A DNA stretch of 64,000 nucleotides from Rhodobacter sp. (GTDB lineage: Bacteria; Pseudomonadota; Alphaproteobacteria; Rhodobacterales; Rhodobacteraceae): the NCBI GenBank assembly GCA_027487575.1, contig JAIYDJ010000039.1, positions 1 to 64,000 on the forward strand, written 5' to 3'. The notes under the pieces were generated by a model. That model saw nothing but the letters and a program-made list of their open reading frames with translations. It had not been told where the DNA came from and made no database searches. This document shows, piece by piece, positions 28,007-41,064 of the stretch. A program made the translations under genes and the position numbers. The first letter of the stretch is position 1; the number at the start of each line of letters is the position of its first letter.

Positions 28007-28434
28007 GATTGCGCGGATGGCCTGTAAGCCGGATTCTGTCCCGGGTGCCTCGCCTTGCGACGACGCCCCCATGGATGACCATTCCTCTGCCGCACCTGTT
28101 GCCAGGGCGGTCAAGCTGCCAACCCGGGCCTCTGGGCTGAAGCGTCCCTGTGGCGGTATCCTGTCGGACCGGTCCCACGCAAGGCCCCTATTCGGCATTG
28201 CTCCGGGTGGGGCTTGCCGTGCCGTCCCGGTTGCCCGGTCCGCGGTGGGCTCTTACCCCACCGTTTCACCATCACCATGGACCCACCGGCCGAAACCGGC
28301 ACCATGGCAGTCTCTTCTCTGTGGCGCTTTCCCTGGGGTTGCCCCCGCCGGGGGTTACCCGGCACCCTTGCTTCATGGAGTCCGGACTTTCCTCGAAGGT
28401 TTCCCCCCGCGGTCATCCAGCCATCCGCGCAAGC
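28007..28434 (-). ncRNA. rnpB: RNase P RNA (class A)
   Basis: The catalytic RNA of RNase P, about 428 nt, on the minus strand. The 5' and 3' ends form a perfect 13-bp P1 helix: TTGCGCGGATGGC at the 5' end (plus-strand 28420-28432) with GCCATCCGCGCAA at the 3' end (28009-28021). The P4 core elements are present: GAGGAAAGTCCGGACTCC (28377-28394) and ACAGAATCCGGCTTA (28025-28039). The exact ends are estimated to a few bases. Open frames read across this region are spurious. The 5' end lies only a few bases after the stop codon of the upstream amidase gene, so its promoter must overlap that gene or it is processed from a read-through transcript. Confidence 0.95.
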
Positions 28435-34389: not shown

Positions 34390-35517
34390 ATGACCACCAG
34401 TGAAACCCCGAAGAAACCCGCCGCAAAAGCCCCGCCTGCGGGCGAGCGTATTGCCAAGGTGTTAAGCCGCGCCGGAGTGGCGTCCCGGCGCGAGGCGGAA
34501 CGGATGATCGAACTGGGCGAGGTTGCGGTCAATGGCAAGACCATCGACAGCCCCGCGCTGAACGTCACCGCCGCCGACCGCATCACCGTGCGGGGCGAGC
34601 CCCTGGCCGAGGCGGAACCGGCCCGCCTTTGGCTTTACTACAAACCCGAAGGTCTGGTGACCTCGGCCTCGGATGAAAAGGGTCGCGCCACGGTGTTCGA
34701 CAACCTGCCGCCCGAACTGCCGCGGGTGATGTCGGTCGGGCGGCTCGACCTCAATTCCGAAGGGCTGCTGCTGTTGACCAATGACGGCGAGTTGAAGCGG
34801 CGGCTCGAACTGCCTTCGACCGGCTGGCTGCGCAAATACCGCGTGCGGATCAACGGCAATCCGACGGACGATGCGCTGGAACCCCTGCGCAAGGGCATCA
34901 CGGTGGATGGCGAACGGTTTCAGCCGATGGCGGTCGCGCTGGACCGCATTCAGGGGGCCAATGCCTGGCTGACGGTCGGCCTGCGCGAGGGCAAGAACCG
35001 TGAAATCCGCCGTGCGCTGTCGGCCATCAACCTGACGGTGAACCGGCTGATCCGGGTCAGCTATGGCCCGTTCCGGCTGGGCGATCTGGAACCGGGGCAG
35101 GTCGAAGAGATCAAGACCAAGACGCTGCGCGAACAGTTGGGCGAGGACCCGATGGAAAAACCGGTGGGCACCGCCCTGCGCAAGACCCGCGCGCCGCGTC
35201 CCGGCGCGCCCTCGCCCGCCCCGCGCAGTGGCAAGGGGGAACCCGCCCCGCGCCGCAGTGCGCCACAGGGCACGGTCGACAAACCCGCAGGTGGCAAACC
35301 GGCCGCAAAGCCCGCATCGCCCAAGACAACCGCCGCCAAACCGGCTGCAAAGACCCCGGCACGGCGCAACGCGGCACCGGTTTCGGGCGCTTCTGCTCTC
35401 AAACAGTTGTCGGACACCTTCACCAAGGCAACCACCCCGCGACGGACGCCGGCCCGGCCGAAACCAGCGCCCGGCAGCGACGGGGCCCCGCCACGCAAAC
35501 CCAGACCGCGCGGCTAA
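34390..35517 (+). CDS. rluB: 23S rRNA pseudouridine synthase B (RluB-like)
   Basis: The 375-residue enzyme has an N-terminal S4 RNA-binding domain (ERIAKVLSRAGVASRREAERMIELGEVAVNG, residues about 19-65) and an RsuA-type catalytic domain with VGRLDLNSEGLLLLTND (catalytic Asp120). The catalytic part ends near 255; beyond it lies a roughly 120-residue Ala/Pro/Lys/Arg-rich tail (KPAGGKPAAKPASPK and similar) that is probably disordered and rRNA-binding. Standard RluB is shorter, so the tail is lineage-specific. Expected target is uridine 2605 (E. coli numbering) of 23S rRNA. Related RsuA/RluE enzymes are the alternatives. Confidence 0.9.
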   Translation: MTTSETPKKPAAKAPPAGERIAKVLSRAGVASRREAERMIELGEVAVNGKTIDSPALNVTAADRITVRGEPLAEAEPARLWLYYKPEGLVTSASDEKGRATVFDNLPPELPRVMSVGRLDLNSEGLLLLTNDGELKRRLELPSTGWLRKYRVRINGNPTDDALEPLRKGITVDGERFQPMAVALDRIQGANAWLTVGLREGKNREIRRALSAINLTVNRLIRVSYGPFRLGDLEPGQVEEIKTKTLREQLGEDPMEKPVGTALRKTRAPRPGAPSPAPRSGKGEPAPRRSAPQGTVDKPAGGKPAAKPASPKTTAAKPAAKTPARRNAAPVSGASALKQLSDTFTKATTPRRTPARPKPAPGSDGAPPRKPRPRG

Positions 35518-35625
35518 ACGCACAGCGTCCGCAAGAAACCGGCGGTTTGCCGCCGCCGCCTCTGGCACGGCCCGCAGTCATCACCTATTATCAGTCGGCA
35601 ACGGATGCGGACGCGAGGGCGGCAG

Positions 35626-35709
35626 ATGACGGGCAAGGCACTACAGCGTCTGGCCTTTGCGGGCCTTCTGGCGCTGACGCTTTACGCCGCCATCGGCGGG
35701 AGCGTCTGA
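35626..35709 (+). CDS. Small hydrophobic ORF (27 aa) coupled to xpaC
   Basis: This reading frame, ATG 35626 to TGA 35707-35709, encodes MTGKALQRLAFAGLLALTLY followed by AAIGGSV. It would form one membrane helix with a positive N-terminus. A GAGGGCGGC ribosome-binding site precedes it, and its stop overlaps the xpaC ATG in a TGATG arrangement, so translation is coupled. It is too short for a normal gene scan. Function unknown; candidate small membrane regulator of the XpaC-TelA system. It could instead be a leader whose translation simply serves coupling. Confidence 0.6.
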   Translation: MTGKALQRLAFAGLLALTLYAAIGGSV

Positions 35710-36578
35710 TGGCGCAGCGGTACGGCGGCAAGTACAGCCCCAACGGCGCCGGTCCGGGCAAGGCCGATGCGGCTCCTTTCGTCCGGGAACCGCGCATCCG
35801 GGCCGGATTCGGCTCGTTCATGCTGTTTGTCACGCCCTTCCTGTTCCTGATCCCGGCCTTCTTCAGTTCGACCACGAACCTGTTTGTCGGCCTCGCCGCC
35901 GGGGTGGTTCTGATCCTGTCCGCCTGGCTGACGCGCGAGGGCATCCTTGCGCAGGGGGCCTTCGACGCGCGCCGCATCGCCCGCCGCCCCGCCTTTCCGC
36001 GCAAGATCGCGGGGGCCCTTTTCAATGGCGTCGGGCTTGGCATCGGCACGTCGATGTGGGCCACGGGCTACACCTATCCAGTCCTGTTCGGCGTGGTGGG
36101 GGCTGCGCTGCATCTTGCCTCGTTCGGCCCCGACCCGCTGTCCGACAAGGGGATGGAGGGCGTCGACCAGTTCCAGACCGACCGTGTGGCCCGCGCGATT
36201 GCCGAGGCCGAGGCCCATGTTACGGCGATGAAGGACGCGATCCTGCGCGCAGGCGACCGGCAGCTTGCGGCGCGGGTGGACCGCTTTGCCACCACCGCGC
36301 GCACCATGTTCCGCACCGTCGAAAGCGACCCGCGCGACCTGACGGCGGCGCGAAAGTACCTGTCGGTCTACCTGATGGGCGCCCGCGACGCGACGGTGAA
36401 ATTCGCCGATGTCTACGCCCGCAACCGCAACCCGCAGGCCCGCGCCGATTATGACGCCCTGCTGACCGATCTGGAAACCAATTTTGCCAGCCGTACGCAG
36501 GCTTTGCTGACAGATTCGCATGCCGATCTCGATGTTGAGATCGCCGTGTTACGTGACCGATTGAAGCTGGAAGGGTAG
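35709..36578 (+). CDS. xpaC: XpaC-family membrane protein (5-bromo-4-chloroindolyl phosphate hydrolysis family)
   Basis: A 289-residue protein with a basic N-terminus, four hydrophobic helices (about 32-52, 56-76, 103-123, 125-142) and a long soluble C-terminal helical domain (about 150-289; DRVARAIAEAEAHVTAMKDAI, DARKYLSVYLMGARDATVKFADV). Paired with TelA downstream, as in the Bacillus xpaC-yaaN operon. The name reflects an old enzymatic assay; a real hydrolase activity is doubtful because no catalytic motif is visible. The start ATG 35709 overlaps the stop of a small upstream ORF. Likely a membrane-stress partner of TelA. Confidence 0.82.
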   Translation: MAQRYGGKYSPNGAGPGKADAAPFVREPRIRAGFGSFMLFVTPFLFLIPAFFSSTTNLFVGLAAGVVLILSAWLTREGILAQGAFDARRIARRPAFPRKIAGALFNGVGLGIGTSMWATGYTYPVLFGVVGAALHLASFGPDPLSDKGMEGVDQFQTDRVARAIAEAEAHVTAMKDAILRAGDRQLAARVDRFATTARTMFRTVESDPRDLTAARKYLSVYLMGARDATVKFADVYARNRNPQARADYDALLTDLETNFASRTQALLTDSHADLDVEIAVLRDRLKLEG

Positions 36579-36633
36579 CCCTGCCCGACCCCACCCACGT
36601 CCCCGCGAAGGGGCCCGTACAAGTGAGACAGCA

Positions 36634-37824
36634 ATGACCAATTCCATTCGTGCCCAAGCCGCCACCGCCCTTGCCGACGTCGAGGCGGTCACGGCGACCA
36701 TCCTTCCGGAACCCGGCACCGCCATTGTGGCTCTGGAAGCCGCCCCCGCCCCGGTCGCCGATGACATCCGCAAGCGGATGGCCGAGCTTGACATGACCAA
36801 CACCCAGTCGATCATCTCGTTCGGGTCCGCCGCCCAGGCCGAACTGCAGGTGATCAGCCAGGAAATGCTGTCGGACGTGAAGAACAAGGATGTGGGCCCG
36901 GCGGGCGACAGCCTGCGCCAGATCGTCACCACCATCCGCGGATTTTCGATCACCGAACTGGACGTTCGGCGCGAACGGTCGTGGTGGGAAAAGCTGATCG
37001 GCCGTGCTGCGCCCTTTGCCAACTTCGTCGCGCGGTTCGAAACGGTGCAGGGCCAGATCGACAAGGTCACCGAAAACCTGCTGAAACACGAGCACACGCT
37101 GCTGAAGGACATCAAGTCCCTCGACATGCTCTATGAAAAGACCCTGCGGTTCTATGACGAATTGGCGCTGTACATCTCGGCCGGCGAGGCAAAGCTGAAG
37201 GAAGTCGACAGCGTCGACATCCCGCGCAAGGAAGCCGAAGTCGCCGCCGCGCCCGAGAACGATCAGGTCAAGATCGCCCAGCAACTGCGCGACATGCGCG
37301 CCGCGCGCGACGATCTGGAACGCCGGGTGCATGACCTGAAACTGACGCGTCAGGTCACCATGCAGTCGCTGCCCTCGATCCGTCTGGTGCAGGAAAACGA
37401 CAAGTCGCTGGTCACCAAGATCAACTCCACCCTCGTCAACACCGTGCCGCTGTGGGAAACCCAGTTGGCGCAGGCCGTGACGATCCAGCGCAGCAAGGAA
37501 GCCGCCGAGGCGGTGCGCTCGGCCAACGACCTGACGAACGAGTTGCTGACCGCGAATGCCGAGAACCTGCAACAGGCCAACCGCGTTGTGCGCACCGAGA
37601 TGGAACGCGGCGTGTTCGACATCGAGGCGGTCAAGAAGGCCAACGCCACGCTGATCGCCACCATCAACGAAAGCCTGGCCATCGCGGACGAAGGCAAGGC
37701 CCGCCGGGCGGCCGCCGAATCCGAGTTGACGAAGATGGAACACGAACTGCGCGATACTCTGGCGTCGGCATCGGCCCGCAAGACCGGACTCGGCGCCGCG
37801 ACCGGGGAAGCATTGCAAGGCTGA
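36634..37824 (+). CDS. telA: TelA-family toxic-anion-resistance protein
   Basis: The 396-residue protein shows the TelA (PF05816) pattern: QSIISFGSAAQAELQVISQEML near the start, a long coiled helical region (about 100-250), and LPSIRLVQENDKSLVTKINSTLVNTVPLWETQLAQAV at about 245-285, the most conserved family segment. No signal or membrane helix, so it is soluble, cytoplasmic or peripheral. TelA proteins were first linked to tellurite resistance and are found with XpaC, Ter-type and PspA-type stress modules. Overlap ATGA with the DUF2927 gene shows coupling. Confidence 0.93.
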   Translation: MTNSIRAQAATALADVEAVTATILPEPGTAIVALEAAPAPVADDIRKRMAELDMTNTQSIISFGSAAQAELQVISQEMLSDVKNKDVGPAGDSLRQIVTTIRGFSITELDVRRERSWWEKLIGRAAPFANFVARFETVQGQIDKVTENLLKHEHTLLKDIKSLDMLYEKTLRFYDELALYISAGEAKLKEVDSVDIPRKEAEVAAAPENDQVKIAQQLRDMRAARDDLERRVHDLKLTRQVTMQSLPSIRLVQENDKSLVTKINSTLVNTVPLWETQLAQAVTIQRSKEAAEAVRSANDLTNELLTANAENLQQANRVVRTEMERGVFDIEAVKKANATLIATINESLAIADEGKARRAAAESELTKMEHELRDTLASASARKTGLGAATGEALQG

Positions 37825-38786
37825 TGTCGCGTCACGCTCCCCATCTGCAACGATACACCGTCGCGGTCCTGTTGGTCGCGGCGTTCGGCCTTTTGGGTTG
37901 CGACACCTCTGCCCCCAGCGGCTCTGGCCAGCCGCCGCCCCCCGCCGTGGCGGCTCCCGCGGCTCCGGTGCCGCAAACCGCGCAAAGCGCCGCCGCGCAG
38001 GGTTACTATGCGCAGGTCCAGCAGGCGCTGCTGTCGCAGGGCCTGCTGCGGACGGATGGCGGGGGTGAGGATACGCCCTTTACCGACCGGATGCTGGCCG
38101 AAAACTTTGTGCGCATCGCCCTGTTCGATGAATATGGCCGCGATTCCGGTGGCGCGTCGGTGCAGCGCCAGACCGTCAGCCATCTGCGCCGCTGGGCTGC
38201 CCCGGTGCGTGTCGGCCTGCGTTTCGGGGCCTCGGTCCCCGCCTCGCAACAGGCGACGGACCGCGCCCGCGTGGCGTCCTATCTGGCGCGTCTGCAGGGG
38301 ATCACCGGCCACCCGATCCGGCTGGACGACGGCAACCCGAATTTCTTCGTCCACATCGTCAACGAGGAAGAACGCCAGGCCCTTGGCCCCGCCTTGCGCG
38401 CAGCCTTGCCCGGCGTTGCTGCGGCGGATGTGGCGGGCATGACCAACATGGCGCGGTCCACCTACTGTCTGGTCTATGCGCAGTCCGAAGGGATGAATTC
38501 AACCTATGTCGGCGCCTTCGCCGTCATCCGGGCCGAACACCCCGATCTTCTGCGCCTGTCCTGCCTGCACGAGGAAATCGCCCAAGGGCTGGGCCTGCCC
38601 AACGACAGCCCCGCCGCAAGGCCCTCGATCTTCAACGATGACGAGGAATTTGCCTTGCTCACCCGTCAGGACGAGCTGTTGTTGCGCATGCTTTACGACC
38701 CCGCCCTCCGCCCCGGCATGACCGAGGACGAAGCCCGCCCGATCATCACAACCCTTGCCAGCCGGCTGACCGGTGGCGAAAGCTAG
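37824..38786 (+). CDS. DUF2927 lipoprotein with HEE motif
   Basis: The 320-residue lipoprotein has a signal ending FGLLGC (Cys at about residue 26), a Pro/Ala-rich linker and a DUF2927 domain (about 85-300) ending LLLRMLYDPALRPGMTEDEARPIITTLA. CLHEEIAQGLGLPNDSP contains an H-E-E-x-x-x-G-L-G-L pattern that resembles extended metalloprotease zinc sites, but the third ligand is not certain. The family is common in alphaproteobacteria and unassigned. Starting with ATGA overlap after telA, it ties an outer-envelope component to the XpaC-TelA block. Confidence 0.85.
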   Translation: MSRHAPHLQRYTVAVLLVAAFGLLGCDTSAPSGSGQPPPPAVAAPAAPVPQTAQSAAAQGYYAQVQQALLSQGLLRTDGGGEDTPFTDRMLAENFVRIALFDEYGRDSGGASVQRQTVSHLRRWAAPVRVGLRFGASVPASQQATDRARVASYLARLQGITGHPIRLDDGNPNFFVHIVNEEERQALGPALRAALPGVAAADVAGMTNMARSTYCLVYAQSEGMNSTYVGAFAVIRAEHPDLLRLSCLHEEIAQGLGLPNDSPAARPSIFNDDEEFALLTRQDELLLRMLYDPALRPGMTEDEARPIITTLASRLTGGES

Positions 38787-38816
38787 GCCCGACAGATTCG
38801 GGCAAAGGAGCGCACC

Positions 38817-39917
38817 ATGGTATTCGGCTTTCTCTCCGGCGAATTCGTCGATGTCATCACCTGGCTCGACGACACGCGCGACACGATGGTCTGGCGCTTT
38901 GAACGGCGCGGCAATGCGATCAAGATGGGGGCCAAGCTGACCGTCCGCGAAGGACAGGCGGCGGTCTTCGTGCATGAAGGGGTGATGGCCGACGTGTTCG
39001 GCCCCGGCATGTACGAGCTTGAAACCAACAACATGCCGATCATGACGACGCTGCAGCACTGGGATCACGGGTTTGACAGCCCGTTCAAGTCCGAGATCTA
39101 TTTCGTCAACACCACCCGGTTCAACGACCTTAAATGGGGCACGAAAAACCCGATCATGTGCCGCGACCCCGAATTCGGCCCGGTGCGCATCCGTGCTTTC
39201 GGCACCTATTCGATGCGCGTCGCCGATCCGGCCAAGTTCATGCAGGAAATCGTCGGCACCGACGGCGAATTCACCGCCGACGAGATCAGCCTGCAGATTC
39301 GCAACATCATCGTGCAGGAGTTTTCCGTCACCATCGCCAGATCGGGCATCCCGGTGCTGGACATGGCTGCCAACACGCAGGACCTCGGCCGCCTGATCGC
39401 GACCGCCATCGCACCCAAGATCGCAGACTACGGCCTGTCGATCCCGGAATTCTACATCGAGAACGTCAGCCTGCCCGAAGAAGTCGAAAAGGTGCTCGAC
39501 AAGCGCACGAGCGTGGGCGTCGCGGGCGACCTGAACAAGTACATGCAGTTCAACGCGGCCGAGGCGATGGCCAATCCGCAGTCGGGTGCCGGGGGCGCGA
39601 TGACGGCCGGTATGGGGGCTGCCATGGGCATGAACATGGCCAACCAGATGGCGCAGCCCGGCCCGTGGGGTGCCACCGCCGCCGCACCGCCGCCACCCCC
39701 GCCGCCGCCGCCCGCCGCACGGGCCTGGCATGTGGCCGAAAATGGCGCGACCACGGGTCCGTTCAGCGAGGCCGACCTTGCCAAGATGGCCGCTTCGGGC
39801 AGCCTGACGCGCACCAGCCAGGTCTGGACCGCCGGGCAGGACGGCTGGAAACCCGCCGCCGACACCGAATTGTCCCGGCTTTTCGCCATGGTCCCGCCGC
39901 CGCTGCCGGGCATCTGA
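38817..39917 (+). CDS. SPFH-domain protein with poly-Pro linker and GYF_2 domain
   Basis: The 366-residue protein begins with VDVITWLDDTRDTMVWRFERR and has an SPFH/band-7 domain of the YdjI (virion-core-like) type, containing LTVREGQAAVFVHEGVMADVFGPGMYELET and later QEIVGTDGEFTADEISLQIR and NVSLPEEVEKVLDKRTS. A Met/Gly/Ala-rich linker, a nine-proline run, and a C-terminal GYF_2 (DUF4339) domain (RAWHVAENGATTGPFSEADL through DGWKPAADTELSRLF) follow. It would oligomerise at the membrane; the GYF_2 domain probably binds a peptide partner. It precedes the zinc-ribbon gene by one base. Confidence 0.9.
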   Translation: MVFGFLSGEFVDVITWLDDTRDTMVWRFERRGNAIKMGAKLTVREGQAAVFVHEGVMADVFGPGMYELETNNMPIMTTLQHWDHGFDSPFKSEIYFVNTTRFNDLKWGTKNPIMCRDPEFGPVRIRAFGTYSMRVADPAKFMQEIVGTDGEFTADEISLQIRNIIVQEFSVTIARSGIPVLDMAANTQDLGRLIATAIAPKIADYGLSIPEFYIENVSLPEEVEKVLDKRTSVGVAGDLNKYMQFNAAEAMANPQSGAGGAMTAGMGAAMGMNMANQMAQPGPWGATAAAPPPPPPPPPAARAWHVAENGATTGPFSEADLAKMAASGSLTRTSQVWTAGQDGWKPAADTELSRLFAMVPPPLPGI

Positions 39918-39918
39918 C

Positions 39919-41064
39919 ATGGCCATTGCGCAAGAACACCGCTGGCCTTGCGCACAATGCGGGGCCGCCCTGCGCTTTGCGCCGGGCCAGACCGTGCTGA
40001 CCTGCGAAAACTGCGGCCATGAACAGACGATCGGCGAAGCCCCCGAGGATGTCCGCGTCAAGGCACTGGGCGAGTTGGACCTGCGCCGCGGCCTGCAGGA
40101 CGATCTGCCCGGCACCGCGACGACCGAAGTCAGATCAACCTCCTGCCCGTCCTGTGGTGCCGTGATCGAGTTTCAGGGGGCCAGTCACGCCACCGAATGC
40201 CCGTTCTGCGCCAGTCCGGTCGTTGTCGATACAGGCGCGCATCGGGTCATCAAGCCTCAGGCGCTGATCCCTTTTGCCCTTGCCGAAGGGCAGGCCCGCG
40301 ACCAGTTGACGACATGGCTGGGCCGGTTGTGGTTCGCGCCGTCCCGACTGCTGGAATACACCCGCAAGAACCGCGCGATGACCGGCATCTATGTGCCCTA
40401 CTGGACCTTCGACGCCGCCACCCGCAGCCGCTATCGCGGCCAGCGCGGCGAGCATTACTATGAAACGCGCACCGTGACCGTCACGGTGAACGGCAAGCGC
40501 GAACAGCGGCAGGAACAGGTGCGCAAGACCCGCTGGTATCCGGCCTCGGGCCATGTCGCGCGCAATTTCGATGATGTCGTGGTGATCGCCTCCACCTCGC
40601 TGCCCCCCGCGCTGGCCAACGGCCTTGAACCCTGGAACCTTGCCGCATTGACCGCCTACAGCCCCGATTATCTTGCCGGATTTCAGGCTGAAAGCTACAC
40701 GGTGCCCCTGCGCGACGGGCATCAGGGTGCCCGCATCAAGATGGATCAGGTCATCCACATGGACGTCCGGCGTGACATCGGCGGCGACGAACAGCAGGTC
40801 GACAGCATCAGCACCGACTACGCGCAGGAAACGTTCAAGCATGTCCTGCTGCCGGTCTGGATGGCGGCCTACAAGTACAACGGCAAAAGCTATCGCTTCC
40901 TTGTGAACGGCCAGACCGGCGAAGTGCAGGGCGAACGTCCCTATTCTGCATGGAAGATCGCCTTCGCAGTCGTCCTGGTGATCGTGCTGATTGCGGGGGC
41001 CGTCTACCTGACCGACCCCGAGGCGCTGGGCCTGTCCCATCCCGACTGGCTGAGCGGCTCCTGA
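39919..41064 (+). CDS. Double zinc-ribbon membrane protein (YdjG-like)
   Basis: The 381-residue protein has two zinc ribbons at the N-terminus: CAQC with CENC (residues about 11-33), and CPSC with CPFC (about 75-95), all eight cysteines present. A long beta-rich middle domain follows (TGIYVPYWTFDAATRSRYRGQRG, and GEVQGERPYSAWKIAFAV) and one C-terminal membrane helix (FAVVLVIVLIAGAVYL) before a short tail. It is a relative of Bacillus YdjG, often mis-annotated as a helicase-related protein. Location directly after the SPFH gene supports a complex. In Bacillus, YdjG and YdjI link PspA to the membrane. Confidence 0.83.
   Translation: MAIAQEHRWPCAQCGAALRFAPGQTVLTCENCGHEQTIGEAPEDVRVKALGELDLRRGLQDDLPGTATTEVRSTSCPSCGAVIEFQGASHATECPFCASPVVVDTGAHRVIKPQALIPFALAEGQARDQLTTWLGRLWFAPSRLLEYTRKNRAMTGIYVPYWTFDAATRSRYRGQRGEHYYETRTVTVTVNGKREQRQEQVRKTRWYPASGHVARNFDDVVVIASTSLPPALANGLEPWNLAALTAYSPDYLAGFQAESYTVPLRDGHQGARIKMDQVIHMDVRRDIGGDEQQVDSISTDYAQETFKHVLLPVWMAAYKYNGKSYRFLVNGQTGEVQGERPYSAWKIAFAVVLVIVLIAGAVYLTDPEALGLSHPDWLSGS

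Follow-up and report, generated by a model that had tools for sequence, protein, structure and literature searches.

Introduction

In Bacillus subtilis, the sigma-W controlled pspA-ydjGHI operon encodes YdjI, YdjG and YdjH, which place the phage-shock protein PspA at the membrane; YdjI itself is soluble and is recruited by YdjG/YdjH (PMC8581546). The xpaC-yaaN pair forms another core sigma-W operon of this bacterium (PMC3498285). Here, we analysed a stretch of 64,000 nucleotides from Rhodobacter sp. (assembly GCA_027487575.1, contig JAIYDJ010000039.1; hereafter the window), in which genes of both kinds lie in a single block of six, encoding a membrane micropeptide, XpaC, TelA (of the YaaN family), a DUF2927 lipoprotein, an SPFH protein with a GYF_2 domain and a double zinc-ribbon protein (hereafter ZnR). 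An earlier note on this DNA had set the block against the separate Bacillus loci, and the published descriptions agree with this comparison. Since both Bacillus operons depend on sigma-W, two modules that are co-regulated in B. subtilis are physically joined here.

We report that this block is a near-universal operon of Rhodobacterales. Our best explanation, to which we give a probability of about 0.55, is that it encodes an inner-membrane-centred, PspA-independent envelope-integrity complex, joined from a TelA and an SPFH module.

Results

Conservation and layout of the operon

Our survey set comprises 196 Rhodobacterales genomes, all of one family by database labels. The SPFH family was matched in 193 of them, 192 of these over cut-off, while for TelA the count was 194. 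A full SPFH protein is absent from five genomes, three of which are also without a full TelA (p ~8e-6, by counting). The complete order XpaC-TelA-DUF2927-SPFH-ZnR was found in 37/40 genomes, one per genus, and in 70 of the 80 named loci (Gemmobacter, Cypionkella, Tabrizicola, Sulfitobacter, Roseobacter and others), the latter being a biased sample since they were picked by SPFH protein similarity; contig ends explain some of the other loci. Upstream of the block, most loci carry RluB/RsuA and tadA, as does the window. With the order complete in so many genera and named loci, the block extends well beyond this genome, and its conservation throughout the taxonomic order excludes a chance arrangement. 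The earlier note had read these genes as one block while allowing that they might be adjacent in this genome only; these counts bear out the former and refute the latter.

In the window, all six co-directional frames are present where they had been placed, and their Pfam families agree with the first reading (Table 1). The intergenic gaps along the block are 0, 55, 0, 30 and 1 nt; the spacing is thus as tight as previously described, while the two overlaps, taken for ATGA, are 1-nt TGATG junctions (35707-35711 and 37822-37826). By hydropathy, the peptide has one transmembrane-like segment, XpaC two, TelA and SPFH none and ZnR a single C-terminal one, and DUF2927 has a signal-peptide region. 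Among the five proteins scanned against NCBIfam none was above a family cut-off, and the operon gave no meaningful match to PADLOC defence families.

Table 1. Features of the operon and its upstream flank, with positions in the window
Feature	Position	Strand	Basis or remark
RluB/RsuA-type pseudouridine synthase, flanking upstream neighbour, outside the module	34390..35517	+	conserved neighbour
Candidate sigma70-like promoter, CTGGCA-N18-TATTAT	35562..35591	+	ahead of operon; alignment of close relatives
Membrane micropeptide, 27 aa, single transmembrane segment	35626..35709	+	TGATG-coupled to XpaC
XpaC (PF10112, 5.8e-25), two transmembrane-like segments then cytosolic domain	35709..36578	+	Pfam, hydropathy
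TelA/YaaN family (PF05816, 2.2e-104), no transmembrane segment	36634..37824	+	Pfam, hydropathy
DUF2927 lipoprotein (PF11150, 4e-65), predicted metzincin fold, His-less active-site helix CLHEEIAQGLGLPND	37824..38786	+	Pfam, model
SPFH Band_7_1 (PF13421, 2e-102), poly-Pro linker, GYF_2 (PF14237, 2.8e-17) and Pro-rich tail; no transmembrane segment	38817..39917	+	Pfam
Double zinc-ribbon protein (ZnR), predicted long beta-strand core, C-terminal transmembrane segment ~344-365	39919..41064	+	ribbon Cys, model

Several relatives carry additional genes at this locus. A cytochrome b561-like gene (PF01292) lies between SPFH and ZnR in part of Rhodobacterales (L203:8121-8714; at least 17 loci clustered). 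Between DUF2927 and SPFH, we found DUF4241-like proteins (L117:5035-6808, three in tandem, and L136:6280-6897) and, in four loci, a DUF6338 protein (L135:3448-4101, L075, L100 and L177). As further operon components, the inserted genes were rejected as lineage-specific. A second XpaC-like frame, which looks like a duplication, stands between XpaC and TelA in three loci (L095:3850-4719, L125:1967-2761 and L129:1595-2560). Elsewhere in the window, a class A RNase P RNA (RF00010) is found at 28009-28428 on the minus strand.

Two modules, probably joined

In a class-wide survey of 142 genomes, five alphaproteobacteria from outside Rhodobacterales gave a strong Band_7_1 match. Four of them (L104-L107) carry XpaC, TelA, SPFH and ZnR consecutively, without DUF2927. 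Elsewhere in the phylum, beyond Alphaproteobacteria, SPFH adjoins ZnR, the ZnR match being strong in about a dozen loci and weak in others, and neither XpaC nor TelA was found within ~7 kb of these pairs. When the block is split in Rhodobacterales, the break falls mostly between DUF2927 and SPFH (L109/L110, L139, L142, probably L148, L179), and in one genome (G110) after TelA. Altogether, the block looks like two modules, peptide-XpaC-TelA-DUF2927 and SPFH-ZnR, that were joined in Alphaproteobacteria, DUF2927 having been recruited later.

Such an architecture also suits a reading in which two functionally separate modules merely share a promoter: XpaC-TelA-DUF2927 would deal with one threat to the envelope, either cationic peptides or oxyanions, SPFH-ZnR would organise the membrane, and the join would be regulatory only, with no joint complex. 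We consider this reading less probable than a joint complex. It would account for the SPFH-ZnR pairs devoid of nearby XpaC/TelA outside Alphaproteobacteria, for the preferred position of the splits and for the existence of two distinct sigma-W operons in Bacillus. However, the join is retained in nearly all Rhodobacterales as well as in L104-L107 outside the order, and the losses coincide, which exceeds what a shared promoter alone predicts.

Comparison with the Bacillus systems

Like pspA-ydjGHI of B. subtilis (PMC8581546, PMC11237479), the operon encodes a YdjI-type Band_7_1 SPFH protein without a transmembrane segment of its own alongside a double zinc-ribbon membrane protein. It differs in having neither PspA nor a YdjH/TPM protein, the TPM domain being found by Pfam in none of the operon proteins; in its SPFH protein, which bears GYF_2 in place of a zinc ribbon; and in that XpaC-TelA and DUF2927 share the operon with SPFH. 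As in the xpaC-yaaN (telA) operon of Firmicutes (PMC3498285, PMC12791056), PF10112 and PF05816 are adjacent, co-directional and in the same order, whereas here the micropeptide leads, DUF2927, SPFH and ZnR follow, and there is no sign of a promoter of the extracytoplasmic function (ECF) type.

The remark that no PspA was in sight holds beyond the window: PspA (PF04012) was not found in the host genome, which is 89% complete, so that its absence is unproven for this single genome. Among the 196 genomes of the order, PspA was matched in just 59 (57 over cut-off). As ~98% of these genomes have the operon markers, PspA is missing from most carriers of the operon, which argues that the module is independent of it. 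TelA was also considered as a PspA homologue and rejected, the profile comparison giving no signal (P 0.18, equal to controls).

As judged by hydropathy alone, the SPFH protein differs from flotillin by the lack of its own N-terminal membrane anchor or hairpin. L107, L240 and L241 likewise have GYF_2 in their SPFH proteins, while at L247 (6923-8035) a C-terminal helix-turn-helix (PF12728) replaces it, suggesting that the C-terminal adaptor of SPFH is exchangeable. Poly-Pro runs of at least four residues occur in 132/137 SPFH proteins. No GYF target motif (PPG-hydrophobic or PPP[GL]) occurs in XpaC or TelA, and few DUF2927 and ZnR proteins have one; it is chiefly SPFH itself that bears Pro-rich tails.

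ZnR carries two CxxC...CxxC ribbons, in which six of the eight cysteines are invariant and the other two nearly so (61 homologues). Its model (predicted local distance difference test, pLDDT, 89.3) contains beta strands of at least 30 residues (155-190, 193-223 and 291-320) and a transmembrane helix at 344-365. Compared by published description, YdjG also has two ribbons and a transmembrane segment, whereas its core is YpeB-related with an NTF2-like fold (PMC11237479) and that of ZnR is predicted to be made of long beta strands. ZnR as the equivalent of YdjG is therefore not borne out, and no YdjH/TPM domain accompanies it. The ZnR core found no match in the PDB (Foldseek best probability 0.30; VIA-align Z at most 3.5, on the ribbons), which does not imply a new fold.

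The DUF2927 lipoprotein has a predicted metzincin fold

We modelled the DUF2927 protein of the window with AlphaFold2 (pLDDT 90.5, predicted template modelling score 0.83). All 50 Foldseek matches listed are metzincins (matrix metalloproteinases or MMPs, snapalysin, archaemetzincin), with a best E of 2.7e-3 and probabilities of 0.77-1.0. VIA-align gave a Z of 12.0 to MMP-7 (147-152 residues, root-mean-square deviation 2.6-3.0 A) and of 11.8 to karilysin. By sequence, DUF2927 had no match among solved structures. A comparison of profiles with 29 M10-type domains from Rhodobacterales aligned 127 columns, whereas none of four control families exceeded 21; this profile match is weak by itself (E 0.006-0.012 in a single comparison, with a probability of 4-6%).

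In the register of the profile alignment, E250 takes the place of the first His, E251 that of the catalytic Glu, Q254 that of the second His, G257 that of the Gly, N260 that of the third His and F270 that of the Met-turn Met, while D283 and L290-Y291 fall on the conserved C-terminal helix (L..D....LY). Column by column, the metzincin HExxHxxGxxH/D thus reads EExxQxxGxxN, which is not a zinc-binding motif, and the Met-turn position is an invariant Phe in alignment A1. The two computations agree on a predicted metzincin (MMP-like) fold in which all three zinc-binding histidines are replaced. In this comparison, the Gly, the catalytic-Glu position and the C-terminal L..D....LY align with MMP-7, karilysin and snapalysin; the EExxQxxGxxN site, the Phe at the Met-turn and the lipid anchor set DUF2927 apart from them.

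All 125 operon copies have HEExxQ, and 13 parsed proteins of the wider family (paralogues of the order, including one in the host genome, and other alphaproteobacteria) have EExxQxxG, so that the site is conserved in its replaced form. H249 is restricted to part of the family, and six weaker matches are fragments or are without EExxQxxG. The host paralogue, a second DUF2927 gene with the same EExxQ site, lies at C39:63980-64579 (L222).

DUF2927 is probably a pseudoprotease or, alternatively, carries an unusual metal site. Inactive homologues of metallopeptidases serve in protein binding, and DUF2927 resembles these pseudopeptidases by its predicted peptidase fold with lost metal ligands; it differs from them in that it is a lipoprotein of the bacterial periplasm and keeps its substituted residues conserved (review PMC11266112). 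This conservation also bears on the view that DUF2927 works as a true peptidase of the periplasm, its metal bound in an unconventional way (ligands E250/Q254/N260 or D261, base E251), and would mature or degrade envelope proteins for the module: E251 kept in all operon copies, together with EExxQxxG in the wider family, exceeds the needs of a decayed site. Nonetheless, the three zinc His positions now hold oxygen or amide side chains, the Met-turn Met is a Phe, and we know of no peptidase with such a His-less site. We thus consider an active peptidase unlikely.

A lipobox is found in 122/125 homologues (LLGC in the window protein). In E. coli, Asp at +2 is an inner-membrane retention signal. 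The window protein has Asp at this position; among the 122 homologues the residue is D in 33, V in 20, A in 20, T in 15 and E in 14. The lipoprotein nature assigned previously is thereby retained, whereas with so mixed a +2 residue neither the outer-envelope location nor the idea of an envelope-spanning assembly is borne out. No mention of DUF2927 was found in the literature searched.

Micropeptide and promoter

A hydrophobic open reading frame of ~22-31 residues ends beside XpaC in 119/125 loci, as found by a permissive scan run without a chance control. A motif filter retained the micropeptide in 112 loci, with a consensus of about MSxtGLQKxAyxlLxxLxxyvaxGG. In 44 peptides that share one length, the first, second and third codon positions show 0.40, 0.30 and 0.58 substitutions, a distribution that fits coding sequence; the micropeptide thus appears conserved and coding-like. 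Two results go beyond the earlier note, the conservation of this small peptide and the metzincin-like fold of DUF2927.

In close relatives, CTGGCA-N17/18-TAT(A)(G)T recurs ~35-60 nt before the micropeptide. Of the 122 upstream regions, 28 contain a sigma70-like site, whereas mononucleotide shuffling yields 7.7; this enrichment is approximate and is suggestive of a sigma70-like promoter ahead of the operon. RpoE- and ECF-like motifs showed no enrichment in the upstream regions.

Discussion

The gene content of the operon, its order, conservation and modularity and its presence in mostly PspA-less genomes are directly supported. We propose that a TelA module (the micropeptide, the membrane protein XpaC, TelA and the periplasmic lipoprotein DUF2927) would act with an SPFH module made of a YdjI-type SPFH/GYF_2 protein and the zinc-ribbon membrane protein. 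The SPFH protein, which has no transmembrane segment, would oligomerise and be held at the membrane by ZnR and XpaC; GYF_2 may bind Pro-rich tails, its own or those of a neighbour. TelA would be the cytosolic partner recruited to the membrane in place of PspA, and DUF2927, a metzincin fold without zinc histidines, would serve as a periplasmic pseudoprotease, either a sensor or an adaptor. We infer in this way a physical complex, a role in stress, a sensor role for DUF2927 and the substitution of TelA for PspA. In Listeria, telA disruption was reported to increase nisin susceptibility 4-fold and tellurite susceptibility 2-fold (PMC12791056), and in E. faecium xpaC is up 7-fold in a liaR mutant (PMC10269926); together with the work on YdjI, these observations point to, and so support, an envelope-protection role.

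Several points weigh against this proposal. A conserved neighbourhood is no proof of a physical complex, and the literature searched yielded no expression, interaction or phenotype data on these proteins in Alphaproteobacteria. The unit is not strictly compact, since unrelated genes (cytochrome b561-like, DUF6338, DUF4241) come between DUF2927, SPFH and ZnR in part of the relatives, and DUF2927 is absent at the locus in two sampled genomes (L116, L118). Furthermore, the operon may be constitutive, as its candidate promoter resembles a sigma70 rather than a stress-ECF promoter. Of the envelope stress or membrane-organising complex first suggested for this locus, the conserved unit stands, the envelope-spanning extent is not borne out, and the function is still a proposal.

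More tentatively, the operon could encode a membrane-stress machine that is permanently in place and needs no PspA. Within it, lipid-anchored DUF2927, with its His-free metzincin fold, would sense or bind periplasmic ligands, and the micropeptide and XpaC would link it to a scaffold of TelA and SPFH in the cytosol; DUF2927 would then represent a new metzincin-like class with an EExxQxxGxxN site. A tellurite or toxic-anion resistance operon, as the TelA annotation and the PF05816 family name would have it, is quite improbable: the 2-fold tellurite effect in Listeria is smaller than that of nisin in the same report (PMC12791056), and near-universal chromosomal conservation favours a housekeeping envelope role.

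The operon is real and conserved, and no description of it was found in the literature searched. Its component modules were already known; the structural claim on DUF2927 and the conserved micropeptide are new. This operon ties together envelope-stress genes, those for TelA, XpaC and YdjI-type SPFH proteins. DUF2927 gains a predicted fold, and with it a biochemical question, that of a pseudoenzyme or an unusual metal site, while the conserved membrane peptide of 22-31 aa is of a kind easily overlooked by gene finders. Finally, as the operon belongs to an order that is amenable to genetics (Rhodobacter/Cereibacter, Ruegeria, Phaeobacter) and mostly PspA-less, these genes are testable outside a PspA background.

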